Notes under the pieces: model-generated | Told to the model about the DNA's origin: nothing | The model's input: only the letters and a program-made list of their open reading frames with translations | Databases searched by the model: none | Made by a program: the position numbers and the translations under genes | Source of the DNA: Crocinitomicaceae bacterium | GTDB lineage: Bacteria > Bacteroidota > Bacteroidia > Flavobacteriales_D > Crocinitomicaceae | Length of the DNA: 64,000 nucleotides | Direction: 5' to 3' | NCBI GenBank assembly: GCA_002709305.1 | Contig: PAQM01000027.1 | Coordinates: 1-64,000 of the forward strand | Part shown: positions 43,863 through 50,672 of the stretch, one piece after another | Layout of the letters: the number at the start of each line of letters is the position of its first letter | How positions within the stretch are numbered: position 1 is the stretch's first letter

Positions 43863-45290
43863 CTATTTTGAATTAGATTTTTTAGCTTTTTTTAATTCTG
43901 ATTTACTCTTTATTTTAATATTTGTACCATTTTTATATGACTCCCCAGATGATTTCAAAATTGATTTAATTTCAGCAATAGGTAATACAGGGAAATATCT
44001 AGCAAATAATAAGAAGAAAACAAAAAATAAACCAATAGTACCAATATATACACCTATATCGATATGACTAGGGTAATGCATGCTCCAAGAAGAAGGAAGA
44101 TAGTCTCGATGAAGAGATGTAACAATAATTACATAACGTTCGAACCACATACCAATATTAACAACAATTGAGATAATGAATGTAAATAATAAACTTCTTC
44201 TTAATCGTCTAAACCACATTAATTGTGGTGAAATAACGTTACAAGTCATCATCGACCAATAAGCCCACCAATATGGTCCTGTAGCTCTATTTATAAATGC
44301 ATAAGCCTCATATTCTACACCAGAATACCAAGAAACAAACAACTCTGTTATGTACGCTGTACCTACTATTGAACCAGTAACCATAATTACAATATTCATA
44401 TACTCAACATGCTTTGTGTGAATATATGCTTCCAATTTCATTGCTTTACGCATAATAAGCATCAATGTCTGAACCATTGCAAAACCAGAGAATACAGCTC
44501 CAGCAACAAAATATGGAGGAAAAATTGTTGTATGCCAACCTGGAATAACTGATGTGGCAAAATCAAAGGATACTATAGAGTGAACTGAGAAAACAAGTGG
44601 TGTTGCTAATCCAGCTAAAACTAATGAGATCAACTCAAACCTATTCCAATGTTTTGCACGACCTGACCAACCAAAAGATAAAATACTATACATCTTCTTA
44701 GAGATTGGTTTCTTTGATCTATCTCTAATAGTAGCAAAATCTGGAATTAAACCTATATACCAAAAAACCAATGAAACTGATAGATATGTTGATATAGCAA
44801 ACACATCCCAAAGAAGTGGGGAATTAAAGTTAACCCATAAAGATCCAAATTGATTGGGTATAGGCATAACCCAATACCCAACCCATAAACGCCCCATATG
44901 AATTAAAGGGAACAATCCTGCCATAAATACTGCGAATATGGTCATAGCTTCCGCTGAACGGTTTATAGCCATTCTCCATTTTTGACGGAATAATAAAAGT
45001 ACAGCTGAAATTAATGTCCCAGCATGTCCGATACCAACCCACCAAACAAAGTTAGTTATATCCCAAGCCCATCCAATTGTCTTATTTAATCCCCAAACAC
45101 CAACACCAGTACCTAATAAATATAAAATACAACCAATACCATATATACCTATAATTAAAGCTATACCAAAGAGAATATACCATGTTCTTGGAGCTTTATC
45201 TTCTATAGGCTTACATACATCTTGCGTGACATCATTGAAGGTCTTATGTCCTAATATAAGTGGCTCTCTGATCGCTGATTCTTTATGCAT
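43863..45290 (-). CDS. actC: Alternative complex III subunit ActC (NrfD-like)
   Basis: A 475-residue integral membrane protein of the NrfD/PsrC family with about ten membrane segments, which carries the quinol site together with ActB. Typical signatures include NFVWWVGIGHAGTLISAVLL and SFDFATSVIPGWHTTIF. The C-terminal 40 residues are Lys/Ser-rich and cytoplasmic. It lies after actB with 19 nt between. Confidence 0.94.
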   Translation of the reverse strand: MHKESAIREPLILGHKTFNDVTQDVCKPIEDKAPRTWYILFGIALIIGIYGIGCILYLLGTGVGVWGLNKTIGWAWDITNFVWWVGIGHAGTLISAVLLLFRQKWRMAINRSAEAMTIFAVFMAGLFPLIHMGRLWVGYWVMPIPNQFGSLWVNFNSPLLWDVFAISTYLSVSLVFWYIGLIPDFATIRDRSKKPISKKMYSILSFGWSGRAKHWNRFELISLVLAGLATPLVFSVHSIVSFDFATSVIPGWHTTIFPPYFVAGAVFSGFAMVQTLMLIMRKAMKLEAYIHTKHVEYMNIVIMVTGSIVGTAYITELFVSWYSGVEYEAYAFINRATGPYWWAYWSMMTCNVISPQLMWFRRLRRSLLFTFIISIVVNIGMWFERYVIIVTSLHRDYLPSSWSMHYPSHIDIGVYIGTIGLFFVFFLLFARYFPVLPIAEIKSILKSSGESYKNGTNIKIKSKSELKKAKKSNSK

Positions 45291-45309: not shown

Positions 45310-48300
45310 TTAATGACTACTTTGATTTTCTTCATGTGCATGAGAATGATTTCCACCATGAGTTTCGTTATCACCATGATGAATAGATTCTTTAACTACT
45401 TGAAGAGATTCAACTTCTTTATCTTCCTCATTCCTTACCTTAACTTTATACCATATATTTGGTTTAACACCAATTTCTTCTAGAACTTGATATGATCTTT
45501 TATCTTCAGAACTTGCTCGTACGTTAGAATTAACATCATTCCAATCTCCAAAAGTAATTGCCCCTGCAGGACACGCATCGCCACAAACTGAAGATGTATC
45601 TTTATCTGTGATTGGTCTACTTTCAGATTTTGCTTTCAATTTAGCAGCCTGAATATTTTGAACACACATAGAGCATTTCTCCATTACACCTCTAGTTCTA
45701 ACTGTAACATCAGGATTTAAAACCATACGACCTAAATCATCCTGTGCAGGATTAATTTCGGCTTGAGCCTTATAAGAAGGATAATTAAACCAATTAAAAC
45801 GACGAACTTTATATGGACAATTGTTAGCACAATATCTAGTACCTATACATCTATTATAGGTCATTTGATTTAACCCTTCATTACTGTGTGTTGTAGCTGC
45901 AACAGGACAAACTGTTTCACATGGAGCATGATTACAATGTTGACACATCATAGGTTGGTGTACAACTTTAGGATTTAAAGCAGGATGTTCAGCATCAGCA
46001 AACCATTCCATTTTACTTTTATTGTGATCACTTCTAAGCCCAACATTAGCCTCTTCTTCAGAAGAAAAGTACCTGTCAATTCTTAACCAATGCATTTCAC
46101 GACCTTTTCTAACCTCCGTTTTACCTACTACTGGCACATTGTTTTCAGCTTGACAGGCTATTAGGCAAGTCCCACAACCAAAACATTTGTTTAAATCGAT
46201 TGTCATAGCCCAACGATGTCCAATTTTTTCTACTGGATGAGCATCCCATAAATCAAAATCTTCTACTGGAGCATCTACATGATGACCATGATCGTCGAGC
46301 TTCTGAAGGGTATGATCAGGATTATATGATTGTTTATCTTTCGATTTATAAACATCTAAAGTAGTTTCTCTGATAATTGAGTGACGCCCCATAACAGTGG
46401 AATGAATTTGAGTCGCAGCAATTAAATACTTTTCATCCAACTTTTGAATATCTCCAGATGTTTCATAACAGTTGGTCCCATTAAAAAGTTGAACAAATTT
46501 AAATGCATTCTGGCCAATTGGGAGAGGATTACCATTATTATCCGTGTGATAACCTCCATACTCTTTAGTCTGATATGCGGCTTTACCTATTTTTTCACCA
46601 TTACCTCCTCGACCATAGCCTAAAGCAACTCCAACTGTACCTAGAGCTTGACCTGGTAAAGGATAAACAGGTAATTTAAGTTCAGCCTTTCCAACCTTTA
46701 TTGTAGCAAGATCTAATCCATTTTCTTGATCAAAAGTAGTAGCATACTCCTTCATTTCAAGAGGATTCATTGTGATGTAATTGTCCCAAGTAACTTTAGT
46801 CATAGGGTCTGGCATTTCCTGCAACCAAGGATTATTAGCTTGTAAGCCAATACCCAAACTAGCTTTTTGATATAAGACTATTTCATGTTTTCCTGAAAAC
46901 TTAGGGAATTTTAACCCCGATAATGAAATAGAATTAAACTCCGTATCTTTAGTGTCTGAAATTTCAGAAGAGCTAACAGAACTATTATGTACTAAAATAT
47001 TCCAATCTGATTGTTTATAATTAGAAGAATTACCTAGTCTTTCTCGAATTGTATTTTCCCAATGATTTTTAATGAAATCATAGGCAACTTTAGAATCTTT
47101 ACCACCTCTATCTGACTTATTAGACCATACAAGAATTGATTCTATAACAGAAGCTGTATTATGAAGTGGTCGAATAGTTGGTTGAGCAATGCTGAAATGG
47201 TTTTTTACTGGCATATAATCTAACCAAGATTCTAAAGCATGATGATCAGGAACAACATATTTACAAAGAGACGCTGTTTCATCTGCATATAGAGAAAATG
47301 AAATAGACGTTTTAATTTTTTTGATCGCTCTACCAAAATCCGACCCATCAGATAAAGAGTAAACAGGATTAACTCCATAAAACATAACTGCATCAGGCAA
47401 ATCACCATTTATGGAATTTTTAACAAAAGAATCCATAATTAAATCATCTGATTTAAAAAGATTAATTGGATTATTTATATTTATTGTAGACCTGTAGGCT
47501 CCCAACACAAAATTCAATTTATTTGTCAAAATCTGGATAGAAGTCTCGTTTGAACCACAAACGACTAAAGAATTAGATTCTGATTTTTTTAATGAAATAA
47601 TCGCTTCTTTAACTTTAGCTTCGATATCTTTATTTAACTTAAAAGGAAAATCTACTTTTACTCCAAAAGCATTTAGCATGTATGCTAAAACAGCTTTTTG
47701 TTCAGAAGGTTTTATCATCCCTCTAACATCAGCATTAGATCCAGTAATTGACATTACTGACTCAAACTGGAAATGCTTTGACATCCATTCTCCATCAGGA
47801 TCTCTTCTAGCTCCATACTGACCAGAAAACTGAGTTGGCATTAGCCAAGAATTCAGGAAGTCTGCTCCTATACTAACTATAGTTTTAGCTTTAGAAAAAT
47901 CATAACTTGGTATAAAACCAATATTTGAATCTGAATTTTCACTTAAGAATGAAACTTTATTTGCATTACGGATTCCTGAATAGGAGACGGCGTCATATTG
48001 AATGTGTTCTATTTGTGAATTTGGCAGAGAATCTTTCATAGTAGAAATTGCCTCTGAAATAGAAGGGCTAATAATTGTGTTTGAAACAATTACGATTTTC
48101 TTCGCAGATTCTAATCCAGAACGAATTTTAGTATCTACTTCTAAGTAATTTGCTTTTTGACCATCAATAGTAGGATTTTTCAATCTTTCACTATCATAAA
48201 GACTTAAAACTGAAGCTACAATTTGAGGATTAGTATTACCATGAGTAATACCATAGTCTTTATTGCCTTTTATCAAGATAGGGCGACCTTCTCTAGTCTT

Positions 48301-48627
48301 CACTAAAATACTTGCATATGAGTTTCCATCATAGTATGTAGAAGCATACCATGTTGCAAGACCCGGAGTGACATTTTCAGGCTTGTTAACATAAGGAATT
48401 GCCTTAGTAACAGGAGCCTCACATGCTGCGACAGTTGCAGCAGCAACACTAAAACCTAAAAATTTCAAGAAATCTCTTCGACCAGTAGATGATTCTTGAA
48501 GACTTTCGTCTCCCAAGAAATCTTGAACCGAATTTTCAATTGGAAACTCTCTATTAGCAGACTCAAGATAAGAGTCTGTTTCTTTAAGTTCGCCTATGTC
48601 TTTCCAATATTTCCTTTCCTTTGCCAT
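45310..48627 (-). CDS. actB: Alternative complex III molybdopterin-like and Fe-S subunit ActB
   Basis: A 1105-residue fusion. N-terminal GRRDFLKFLGFSVAAATVAAC resembles a variant TAT signal with a Cys. Residues about 75-700 are a molybdopterin-oxidoreductase-like domain that in ActB has no metal cofactor. The C-terminal part has ferredoxin-type clusters: CFGCGTCLIAC, CQHCNHAPCETVC, CIGTRYCANNC, and CSMC with CGDAC near 1030, consistent with the four Fe-S clusters of ActB. The His-rich end (HHGDNETHGGNHSHAHEEN) may bind metal. Confidence 0.94.
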   Translation of the reverse strand: MAKERKYWKDIGELKETDSYLESANREFPIENSVQDFLGDESLQESSTGRRDFLKFLGFSVAAATVAACEAPVTKAIPYVNKPENVTPGLATWYASTYYDGNSYASILVKTREGRPILIKGNKDYGITHGNTNPQIVASVLSLYDSERLKNPTIDGQKANYLEVDTKIRSGLESAKKIVIVSNTIISPSISEAISTMKDSLPNSQIEHIQYDAVSYSGIRNANKVSFLSENSDSNIGFIPSYDFSKAKTIVSIGADFLNSWLMPTQFSGQYGARRDPDGEWMSKHFQFESVMSITGSNADVRGMIKPSEQKAVLAYMLNAFGVKVDFPFKLNKDIEAKVKEAIISLKKSESNSLVVCGSNETSIQILTNKLNFVLGAYRSTININNPINLFKSDDLIMDSFVKNSINGDLPDAVMFYGVNPVYSLSDGSDFGRAIKKIKTSISFSLYADETASLCKYVVPDHHALESWLDYMPVKNHFSIAQPTIRPLHNTASVIESILVWSNKSDRGGKDSKVAYDFIKNHWENTIRERLGNSSNYKQSDWNILVHNSSVSSSEISDTKDTEFNSISLSGLKFPKFSGKHEIVLYQKASLGIGLQANNPWLQEMPDPMTKVTWDNYITMNPLEMKEYATTFDQENGLDLATIKVGKAELKLPVYPLPGQALGTVGVALGYGRGGNGEKIGKAAYQTKEYGGYHTDNNGNPLPIGQNAFKFVQLFNGTNCYETSGDIQKLDEKYLIAATQIHSTVMGRHSIIRETTLDVYKSKDKQSYNPDHTLQKLDDHGHHVDAPVEDFDLWDAHPVEKIGHRWAMTIDLNKCFGCGTCLIACQAENNVPVVGKTEVRKGREMHWLRIDRYFSSEEEANVGLRSDHNKSKMEWFADAEHPALNPKVVHQPMMCQHCNHAPCETVCPVAATTHSNEGLNQMTYNRCIGTRYCANNCPYKVRRFNWFNYPSYKAQAEINPAQDDLGRMVLNPDVTVRTRGVMEKCSMCVQNIQAAKLKAKSESRPITDKDTSSVCGDACPAGAITFGDWNDVNSNVRASSEDKRSYQVLEEIGVKPNIWYKVKVRNEEDKEVESLQVVKESIHHGDNETHGGNHSHAHEENQSSH

Positions 48628-48639
48628 TTTGTTAATTAA

Positions 48640-49983
48640 TTAATAGTGGCATTTTGCACACTCCCATCCCCCTAACTCCTTAACAGTTACTTTCCCATCT
48701 TCTAAATATTTTCTATATAAGTCTTTATCGCCGTCCATTAAACGTTTATGAATTTCATCATAATATCCATCTTTTTTGCTATCTAACGATCCTGTTGATA
48801 TTTCTTTTGCACCATGACATTCAATGCACCATCCCATTGTTAATGTTGGCTTAGTTAACTTGATATTCCCTTCAACCATATTTAACGCTTGAATAGACTG
48901 AACCTTAACTGTTTCATCCATTTTAGTCATATCACCATGACATTGCTTACAATCAATCCCTCCTACTTTCACATGTTGAGAATGGTTAAAATATACATGA
49001 TCAGGTAACTGATGTACTTTATTCCATATTATCTCTTTTGTTTCTCCTGTATATTTTCCAGCACCTGATGGATCATATCCTGCAGCAGCATATATCTTTT
49101 GGATTTGTTCTTGTTGTTCTGGGGTGTTTCCATTAATTTGCTTGTGACAATTCATACAAACATTTACTGTAGGAAGGCCTGCTGATTTTGATTTGTTAAC
49201 TGAATTATGACAATACTTACAATCGATTCCATTAACTCCAGCATGAATAGAATGAGGGAAGTTAATTGGTTGAGAAGGTTGGTAGTTTTCAACCACTCCT
49301 ACGCTGTAAAGTGTTAGGAAAAGAGATACCACCAAACCTATAATAATACATACGATAGATATAGCAACAGTTTTTCTGTATTTCCATGCTAGCCTTTTTA
49401 GTTCATCTAAGTAGGATAAATCTTCTTCTAATTTTCCCCCATCTATTTCAAGCGAAGTAGATTGTAACTGGCGGCGAACGCCACCAACAGCAAGAATAAT
49501 AATTGAAAAAATTACACCTAATATAATCCATATCCAAGTTGAATTAGATGACTGATCAATATCTTCGGCACCCACTTCAGATGACGGACCCGCAGATGCA
49601 ACTACTTCTTCTTGAGAATCGATCCAATCAAATATACTTGTGATTTGATCTTTTGACAAATCAGGGAAATTATTCATTGCTGTCGGAGACCAAGTAGAAA
49701 CTTGTTGAGCATATGGGTCAGCTGCAACAGCTTTGCTCCAATTATTAACCCATAAAATAATTGAATTTTCTTTAGCTCCTCCATCAGACCACTTTTGACG
49801 AACTTGGTATAGCTTAGGGCCAGTTCCATCTTTAAAAATTTGGTGACAAGTGGCACATTTAGCTTTAAATAGAGCCTCTCCTTGTCCATTTGATTTAAAT
49901 GACGGAATTATAAACAGAATGATTATAGCCCGAATGGACAACTTAATAAAAATTGCAAGAACCTGACTACTAGATATTTTCAC
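48640..49983 (-). CDS. actA: Alternative complex III multiheme cytochrome ActA
   Basis: A 447-residue protein starting at GTG (49983) with an N-terminal hydrophobic segment. Six CxxCH motifs occur: CATCH (near 43), CKYCH, CMNCH, CKQCH, CIECH and CAKCH (C-terminus). A second membrane segment at about 150-168 and another at about 205-225 separate the N-terminal mono-heme domain from the remaining pentaheme domain. It accepts electrons from quinol oxidation and passes them to ActE. A promoter and two palindromes lie upstream. Confidence 0.92.
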   Translation of the reverse strand: MKISSSQVLAIFIKLSIRAIIILFIIPSFKSNGQGEALFKAKCATCHQIFKDGTGPKLYQVRQKWSDGGAKENSIILWVNNWSKAVAADPYAQQVSTWSPTAMNNFPDLSKDQITSIFDWIDSQEEVVASAGPSSEVGAEDIDQSSNSTWIWIILGVIFSIIILAVGGVRRQLQSTSLEIDGGKLEEDLSYLDELKRLAWKYRKTVAISIVCIIIGLVVSLFLTLYSVGVVENYQPSQPINFPHSIHAGVNGIDCKYCHNSVNKSKSAGLPTVNVCMNCHKQINGNTPEQQEQIQKIYAAAGYDPSGAGKYTGETKEIIWNKVHQLPDHVYFNHSQHVKVGGIDCKQCHGDMTKMDETVKVQSIQALNMVEGNIKLTKPTLTMGWCIECHGAKEISTGSLDSKKDGYYDEIHKRLMDGDKDLYRKYLEDGKVTVKELGGWECAKCHY

Positions 49984-50028
49984 TTAAAAAACTGTTAGTC
50001 CAAGATTAATTTATCAATTTAACTAAAG

Positions 50029-50036
50029 CAAAGTTA
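50029..50036 (-). promoter_or_regulatory. Putative -7 promoter element (TAACTTTG) for actA operon
   Basis: Minus-strand TAACTTTG matches TAnnTTTG exactly, 46-53 nt before the actA GTG. The -33 position lies in or near the palindrome at 50043-50059 and carries no TTTG, suggesting dependence on a regulator. Confidence 0.45.
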
Positions 50037-50042
50037 GTTAAA

Positions 50043-50070
50043 TGTCATATTTTATGACAGTTTTATGACA
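50043..50070. promoter_or_regulatory. Palindrome TGTCAT-N5-ATGACA plus third half-site
   Basis: TGTCAT (50043-50048) and ATGACA (50054-50059) are exact inverted arms; a second ATGACA at 50065-50070 makes an 11-nt-period direct repeat with the first. It adjoins the actA -7 element and covers the expected -33 region, so it is a plausible operator for the respiratory operon. Not tested. Confidence 0.5.
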
Positions 50071-50090
50071 AAAAAAAACGGAAAAGGTTA

Positions 50091-50109
50091 ATTTAGAATT
50101 ATTCTAAAT
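50091..50109. promoter_or_regulatory. 19-bp perfect palindrome (Fur/PerR-style 9-1-9)
   Basis: ATTTAGAATTATTCTAAAT has arms of nine bases around one central T. The core TTAGAATTATTCTAA is a 7-1-7 repeat like PerR/Fur-family boxes. It lies between actA (-) and the SPOR gene (+), about 55 nt upstream of the actA -7 element and 110 nt before the opposite candidate promoter. Confidence 0.5.
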
Positions 50110-50218
50110 AATGGCAGCTTAATAAAATCATCTATTGTAAATTTAACTAGGCAAATTTTACAACTAAAAATCAGACTACTTTAATTCTTTAGGCACAAAA
50201 ATTGATTAAAGTATTTTG

Positions 50219-50226
50219 TAACTTTG
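50219..50226 (+). promoter_or_regulatory. Putative -7 promoter element (TAACTTTG) for SPOR gene
   Basis: Exact TAnnTTTG match, 9 nt upstream of the ATG at 50235. A TTG is present 14 nt upstream of it (50202-50204), closer than the usual -33 spacing. The leader would be very short, so a chance match is possible. Confidence 0.35.
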
Positions 50227-50234
50227 TAATTCAA

Positions 50235-50672
50235 ATGACTACCTTATATAAAATAAAAATCATAATACTATTACAAACACTAAGTATTAATATAACTCTA
50301 TCTCAAAGGGAGGGCGTAAAAATAATACAAGATGAAAGAATTGAAAACATTATACATGAACAAAGTGAAATTTCATCTAAATCAACAAGGCAAAAAATAA
50401 ATGGTTTTAGAATACAATTATTTTTTGACTCTGACAAAGAAAAAATCAATGTCGCTAAAGCCCTTTTTATGGCTAATCATAAAAAGATTGATACTTACAT
50501 TACTTATAAAGCCCCTAACTTTTTTCTGAAAGCTGGTGATTTTAGGACACGTTTAGAAGCAGAAAAAGTAAGGTCAACTATTGAAAGTTTATTCCCCACT
50601 AGTTTTGTTATCAAAGAAAAAATCAACCTCCCTCGTCTCAAACGAAAAAACAGTTTCGAGGATGAATTATAA
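50235..50672 (+). CDS. SPOR-domain periplasmic protein
   Basis: A 145-residue protein from the ATG at 50235, chosen because the signal peptide (MTTLYKIKIIILLQTLSINITLSQ) begins there; a TTG at 50202 is rejected. The C-terminal half matches a SPOR domain (GFRIQLFFDSDKEKINVAKA, then YKAPNFFLKAGDFRTRLEAE), which binds denuded peptidoglycan at division sites. It overlaps the rnpA start by 11 nt, which suggests translational coupling. The link to RNase P is genomic rather than functional. Confidence 0.82.
   Translation: MTTLYKIKIIILLQTLSINITLSQREGVKIIQDERIENIIHEQSEISSKSTRQKINGFRIQLFFDSDKEKINVAKALFMANHKKIDTYITYKAPNFFLKAGDFRTRLEAEKVRSTIESLFPTSFVIKEKINLPRLKRKNSFEDEL

Follow-up and report, generated by a model that had tools for sequence, protein, structure and literature searches.

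What reads the palindrome that stands in front of the respiratory operon in the window (the whole 64-kb stretch of DNA analysed here), and does it turn that operon up or down? The palindrome, ATTTAGAATTATTCTAAAT, occupies exactly positions 50091–50109, with nine complementary bases flanking one base (9-1-9), as the original prediction had described it; the window has no second perfect palindrome of this 9-1-9 form. It lies inside a 251-nt gap between divergent genes, bounded by a GTG start codon at 49983 on the minus strand and by the ATG of a plus-strand open reading frame (ORF) at 50235. The minus-strand gene (48640–49983), which carries Cytochrome_C7, Cytochrom_CIII and Cytochrom_C domains, probably encodes the multihaem cytochrome c subunit of alternative complex III (ACIII); the name actA is based on gene order and domains, and the gene would be the first of the presumed target operon. 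Downstream in the same presumed operon, profile searches identify an actB-type gene for a fused molybdopterin-like/4Fe-4S subunit (45310–48627, minus strand), and an actC-type gene for the NrfD quinol-binding subunit (PF03916) is located at 43863–45290, also on the minus strand.

The divergent small ORF (50235–50672, 156 aa) had been labelled a SPOR gene, for which the profile searches gave no confirmation: no Pfam match was obtained at E ≤ 0.001, and NCBIfam gave a weak RlpA-type hit (E 0.00077). The start listed for this ORF, a TTG at 50202 (50202–50672), lies upstream of the ORF’s own −7-type element (TAACTTTG, 50219–50226, plus strand), and the ATG at 50235 is the likelier start.

Taken alone, the palindrome is weak evidence. 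When the gap, 253 nt long in the script, was shuffled by composition, 202 of 20,000 shuffles (1%) contained a 9-1-9 palindrome, and 206 of 3,000 (7%) contained some 9-bp inverted repeat with a spacer of 0–8, so the earlier statement that such a pair of arms is unlikely to occur by chance was too strong. Loose matches in the same genome hardly exceed those of a backwards control, with 28 strand hits against 24 for the palindrome at up to three mismatches, and 16 matches against 10 for a looser family form at up to two mismatches. Both results are what would be expected if the palindrome were an AT-rich chance occurrence without function. That reading is nonetheless ruled out for practical purposes by the conservation of the site in place upstream of actA, at a fixed spacing, across relatives, and it is this comparison that makes the evidence strong.

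Near relatives were collected by a scan for ActA, from which the best 80 of 585 loci were taken (the named set, labelled Flavobacteriales, Crocinitomicaceae, Fluviicola and others, and nearly all from MAGs). Two of these, L047 and L062, were dropped because less than 100 nt of upstream sequence was available, leaving 78 usable loci with at least 100 nt scanned. The family consensus TTATTTAGAATnATTTTAAATTA, a 23-bp conserved block of the actA promoter that covers 50089–50111 on the minus strand of the window, was found upstream of actA at up to three mismatches in 77 of the 78 usable loci, and in 0 of 1,560 shuffled upstream regions. In the single miss (L034), the box is cut by the contig edge. 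Absence from close relatives, which the original prediction had named as the first part of its refutation, is therefore not what is seen.

The comparison was extended to 197 sampled genomes of the class, taken as Bacteroidia from the named Flavobacteriales relatives, and an ActA match was found in 187 of them. Eighty class loci were scanned, comprising the 30 best matches, 40 loci hand-picked across families and 10 more, among which four were chosen because their genomes lack Fur; L311 (the same gene as L228) and L308 were left out, and the in-class loci L337–L348 were scanned and kept out of the count. The box is present upstream of actA at 51 of the 80 loci at up to two mismatches and at 58 at up to three, and shuffles of 40 distant class loci reach the two-mismatch level in about 0.6% of cases. 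Among the 75 class loci from Fur-bearing genomes, 25 have no box at up to two mismatches. Outside the class, 2 of the 15 actA-like loci scanned have the box, both belonging to one family (L360, one mismatch, spacing 56 bp; L363, three mismatches, spacing 55 bp). Perfect symmetry was discarded as the key feature, with pairing at all nine positions found in none of the 77 named relatives and in 7 of the 51 class-level boxes.

The distance of the box from the actA promoter is nearly fixed as well. An element of the form TAnnTTTG, which we take to be the −7 consensus, lies at 50029–50036 on the minus strand of the window (TAACTTTG), with the box centre 64 bp upstream and no TTG in the −33 zone, defined as 14–26 nt upstream of the −7 start. 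The corresponding spacing is 66 bp in 74 of the 77 named loci and 56 bp in one; two have no such element. At class level, 45 of the 51 box-bearing loci have a TAnnTTTG within this range (six have none there), and the 45 are distributed over spacings of 44 (1 locus), 54 (6), 55 (5), 56 (2), 64 (1), 65 (12), 66 (17) and 67 bp (1). The resulting classes, 44, 54–56 and 64–67 bp, are about one helical turn apart. TTG is absent from the −33 zone in 38 of the 45. A phased operator combined with a missing −33 TTG is the layout of a class I activator-dependent promoter, in which the promoter lacks its upstream hexamer and the operator precedes it with constant helical phasing. The fixed phase between box and promoter, which the first reading of the locus had missed, points to activation. 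Over 12 loci, the distance from the box to the listed start of the divergent gene ranges from 67 to 183 bp. Because the distance is nearly fixed to the actA −7 element and variable to the divergent gene, the box is assigned to the actA promoter, and control of the divergent small gene was rejected.

Between the box and the −7 element, the window contains a direct repeat with an 11-bp period, TGTCATAAAACTGTCA (50055–50070, minus strand), which we presume to resemble a PhoB box and which might be a second activator site confined to the near family, where the presumed actA transcription start follows about 40 bp downstream of it. Among the 77 named loci, 72 have TGTCA at offset 31 as well as at offset 42, counted from the box centre, and at least two copies of TGTCA/TGACA are found at just 6 of the 51 class-level loci with a box; loose matches to the repeat in the same genome number 36, against 35 for the backwards control. 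The repeat was accordingly set aside as the main element and is regarded as secondary. The hemA box (C28:157231) likewise has a TGTCA-type repeat next to it. Within the actA leader (49984–50028 in the window, minus strand), some relatives have an inverted repeat such as GTCAAAAAGTGTTTTTTTGAC, a possible leader structure, and many share a stretch like ACTAACAGTTTTTTACATG. No repeat of the GTCAAAAAGTGTTTTTTTGAC type is evident in the window, where the start codon is GTG.

The motif was then followed through 24 genomes, the present one and its relatives, using the pattern ATTTAGANTNATTNTAAAT and a backwards control. The pattern is present in 22 of the 24 and the control in none. It defines 53 distinct sites, found before actA (14), nqrA (11), sufA (9), genes for DUF4856 lipoproteins (6) and HmuY-like genes (4), the rest being at sod (2), DUF6607 (2), hemA (1), Mrp-type (1), HTTM (1) and response regulator (1) genes and at the gene for the L158 protein (1); 42 of the 53 precede actA, nqrA, sufA, HmuY-like, sod, hemA or Mrp-type genes. 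These groups were assigned by eye from N-termini, and each named kind was checked by Pfam/NCBIfam profiling of one or two representatives. The hemA kind was profiled on the gene of the present genome (L003), L158 was counted without a profile, and the HmuY profile scored below the Pfam cut-off for L146 and above it for L094 of the present genome. Near-matches in the present genome precede hemA (L003), an HmuY-like gene (L094), nqrA (L004) and a response regulator gene, and most of the others examined fall inside genes. At the LuxR-type response regulator gene, the box is located between the −7 element and the start codon in two genomes (L163, 1810–1828; L002 of the present genome, 1501–1519).

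The layouts of these promoters fall into two kinds. The nqrA box lies at a spacing of 65–66 in 10 of the 11 loci of the order, the −7 element of the present nqrA being degenerate. TTG is found in the −33 zone of none of the 9 actA and none of the 10 nqrA promoters counted (0 of 19 together), and in that of all nine sufA promoters, at which the box centre is 23–35 bp downstream of the −7 start. This count leaves out the present nqrA, which has no TAnnTTTG, four actA loci of other families, and the hemA sites. The smaller groups give 2 of 2 HmuY-like, 1 of 2 response regulator, 1 of 1 DUF4856 and 0 of 2 sod promoters with a −33 TTG. The actA/nqrA layout is the one to be expected of activator sites and the sufA layout the one to be expected of repressor sites, with the proviso that related genomes are not independent. 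The rule is not clean: the two sod promoters, with boxes 26 bp upstream of the −7 element and no −33 TTG, fit it poorly. A class-wide nqrA box was rejected, because 25 of the 30 class loci scanned have none at up to two mismatches; five have a box at that level and seven at up to three, and the four nqrA loci besides the present one have spacings of 54, 54, 54 and 65. A second palindrome, ATACC-N8-GGTAT, is found next to the Fur box at 18 of the 28 scanned sites that belong to haem, iron, SUF or other non-respiratory genes (L094, 1485–1502; L134, L142, L146, L143 and others) and near the box at 0 of 20 actA/nqrA sites. The form AATACC-N8-GGTATT occurs in 22 of the 24 genomes and its backwards control in 5 of the 24; as a guess, it might be read by an Rrf2/IscR-type protein.

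The identity of the box is indicated by the literature on Riemerella anatipestifer. All 19 letters of the palindrome, an inverted repeat with an AAT-n-ATT core, are identical to the Fur box predicted for this species (PMC5609570). That box was predicted in strain YM with RegPredict, and Fur gel shifts were reported on four promoters (PMC5609570). Fur also shifts the rhuB promoter, which contains the one-letter variant ATTTAGAATTATCCTAAAT (PMC10986502), and a box mutant derepresses rhuH (PMC11967795); an E. coli-type consensus is quoted instead in PMC7976709. The present genome was found to encode one protein of the Fur family (PF01475). The ten structures that match it best are Fur-family proteins, all described as Fur; among NCBIfam models those of Fur score highest, at values below the cut-offs, and matches to PerR and Irr models are weak. 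Because the match to the R. anatipestifer box is joined by an iron, haem, Fe-S and respiration gene set in 24 genomes, by a single Fur-family protein and by conservation at actA, the Fur part of the original prediction has good support, and 50091–50109 is very probably a Fur box.

Fur and the box do not coincide everywhere. PF01475 is found in 22 of the 24 near genomes; the two without a match (G005 and G008) have the motif and are both incomplete (82% and 76%), and two others (G020 and G021) have Fur and no match to ATTTAGANTNATTNTAAAT. In the class, 192 of 197 genomes have PF01475. Four of the five without it also have no actA box, and the fifth (G051) keeps a box at a spacing of 54. The association between actA box and PF01475 is weak, with a Fisher p of 0.055 at up to two mismatches and 0.019 at up to three and with three of the four Fur-less, boxless genomes being of one family. 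A protein search for Fur in the Fur-less genomes was uninformative, since G124, which has a PF01475 match, gave no signal either. The promoter of the present fur gene has no box (best match, four mismatches), and an autoregulatory box there was rejected.

In the mechanism proposed here, the palindrome would be a Fur operator that forms part of the actA promoter. When iron is sufficient, a Fur dimer would bind some 80 bp ahead of the presumed transcription start, so placed that it and RNA polymerase share one face of the helix, and would activate a promoter that has a −7 but no −33 element. Iron supply would thereby set the synthesis of the iron- and haem-rich ACIII, and Na+-NQR, which has an equally distant box, would be coupled to iron likewise. 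Where the box follows directly after the −7 element, as at sufA and some HmuY-like genes, Fur should repress, and SUF and haem uptake would be kept down. We put the probability that this Fur box acts positively on ACIII at about two in three.

Expression in R. anatipestifer is partly for and partly against the proposal. A gene named ‘Cytochrome c oxidoreductase quinone-binding subunit 1’, presumably actC to judge by that name, drops on iron restriction in the wild type (−1.01 as printed) and drops further in a fur deletion (−3.47), with a deletion-to-wild-type value of −2.23 without iron; no value is listed for the deletion with iron (PMC5609570). The effect of Fur is positive, yet the pattern is not simply that of activation by iron-loaded Fur.

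The drop on iron restriction would also be expected if iron-free Fur repressed the operon when iron is scarce (PMC5609570), and iron-loaded Fur might repress as well, by blocking, looping or hindering a protein bound at the TGTCA repeat, the second candidate site that lies near the box in the window. Precedent exists in the Fur targets rhuB, rhuH, B739_0103 and B739_0173, all repressed by Fur (PMC10986502, PMC11967795, PMC7976709). Repression at actA is nevertheless unlikely: the box is far upstream, in helical phase with the −7 element and present also at loci without TGTCA repeats, the −33 element is mostly absent, and without iron the ActC-type gene is expressed less, not more, when fur is deleted (PMC5609570). 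Somewhat less likely again is control of ACIII and NQR by another class-wide regulator, an activator of respiratory or redox type whose palindrome is similar, the resemblance to a Fur box then reflecting convergence or competition for the site. The box retained in G051, the geometry common to actA and nqrA boxes and not seen at sufA sites, and the binding of RprY to the nqrA promoter in P. gingivalis (review PMC5706477) would all suit such an activator. It would leave unaccounted for the same motif before HmuY-like, sufA and sod genes in the same genomes, its loss at actA in most Fur-less genomes and the exact match to the R. anatipestifer Fur box (PMC5609570).

Peroxide control by a PerR-type regulator, the other half of the original prediction, found no support and is very improbable. 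The 7-1-7 shape of the core, the two sod genes in the set and the weak matches of the Fur-family protein to PerR models are compatible with it; a PerR box would, however, call for a PerR-type regulator and peroxide genes, and the sole Fur-family protein scores best against Fur profiles and Fur structures. The set is mainly one of haem, Fe-S and respiration genes, and no catalase or alkyl hydroperoxide reductase was recognized by eye among the 53 sites.

Returning to activation by Fur, the two layouts may be parts of a Bacteroidia-wide position code, for and against which we see about equal odds. A single operator would activate ACIII, and NQR in some lineages, from phase-locked positions about 44, 55 or 66 bp ahead of promoters without a −33 element, and would repress haem uptake and SUF from positions at or downstream of the −7 element. 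If the code is real, it would achieve iron-sparing in one step; enterobacteria do so with a small RNA. It could be very old wiring, given that boxes also precede two actA-like loci, both from a single family, outside the class. Activation of ACIII by Fur would mean that, in a major group of aquatic and soil bacteria, the capacity for aerobic respiration is set directly by iron supply; thanks to the spacing classes, contact between Fur and polymerase is open to simple spacer-insertion tests.

Among known systems, Fur serves as a direct activator in Neisseria and Helicobacter, with its box upstream of the core promoter of iron-positive genes. The loci described here differ in their stereotyped spacing in steps of about 11 bp across the class and in promoters mostly without a −33 element. 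The Irr/ICE box of alphaproteobacteria, the target of a Fur-family protein in haem and respiratory gene control, has a core (TTTAGAA-n3-TTCTAAA) similar to the present palindrome, whereas lineage and regulator differ, Irr models matching the present protein weakly. The kind of operator is already known. That it occupies a nearly constant position in front of the ACIII operon throughout the class was not found in print in the open-access literature searched, where no paper came to light that links Fur to ACIII or to cytochrome c oxidoreductase. RprY, which acts at nqrA in P. gingivalis, is also a regulator from the Bacteroidetes, but a response regulator and not a Fur-family protein (review PMC5706477). 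Closest in sequence is the system of R. anatipestifer, of the same order Flavobacteriales, whose Fur box has the same 19 letters (PMC5609570) and whose boxes lie at haem and iron genes (PMC5609570, PMC10986502, PMC11967795). The boxes published there lie less than 100 bp from the start codon, and Fur is discussed as a negative regulator, unlike the arrangement proposed here (PMC5609570). None of the 11 boxes given in that paper is at an ACIII or NQR operon (PMC5609570).
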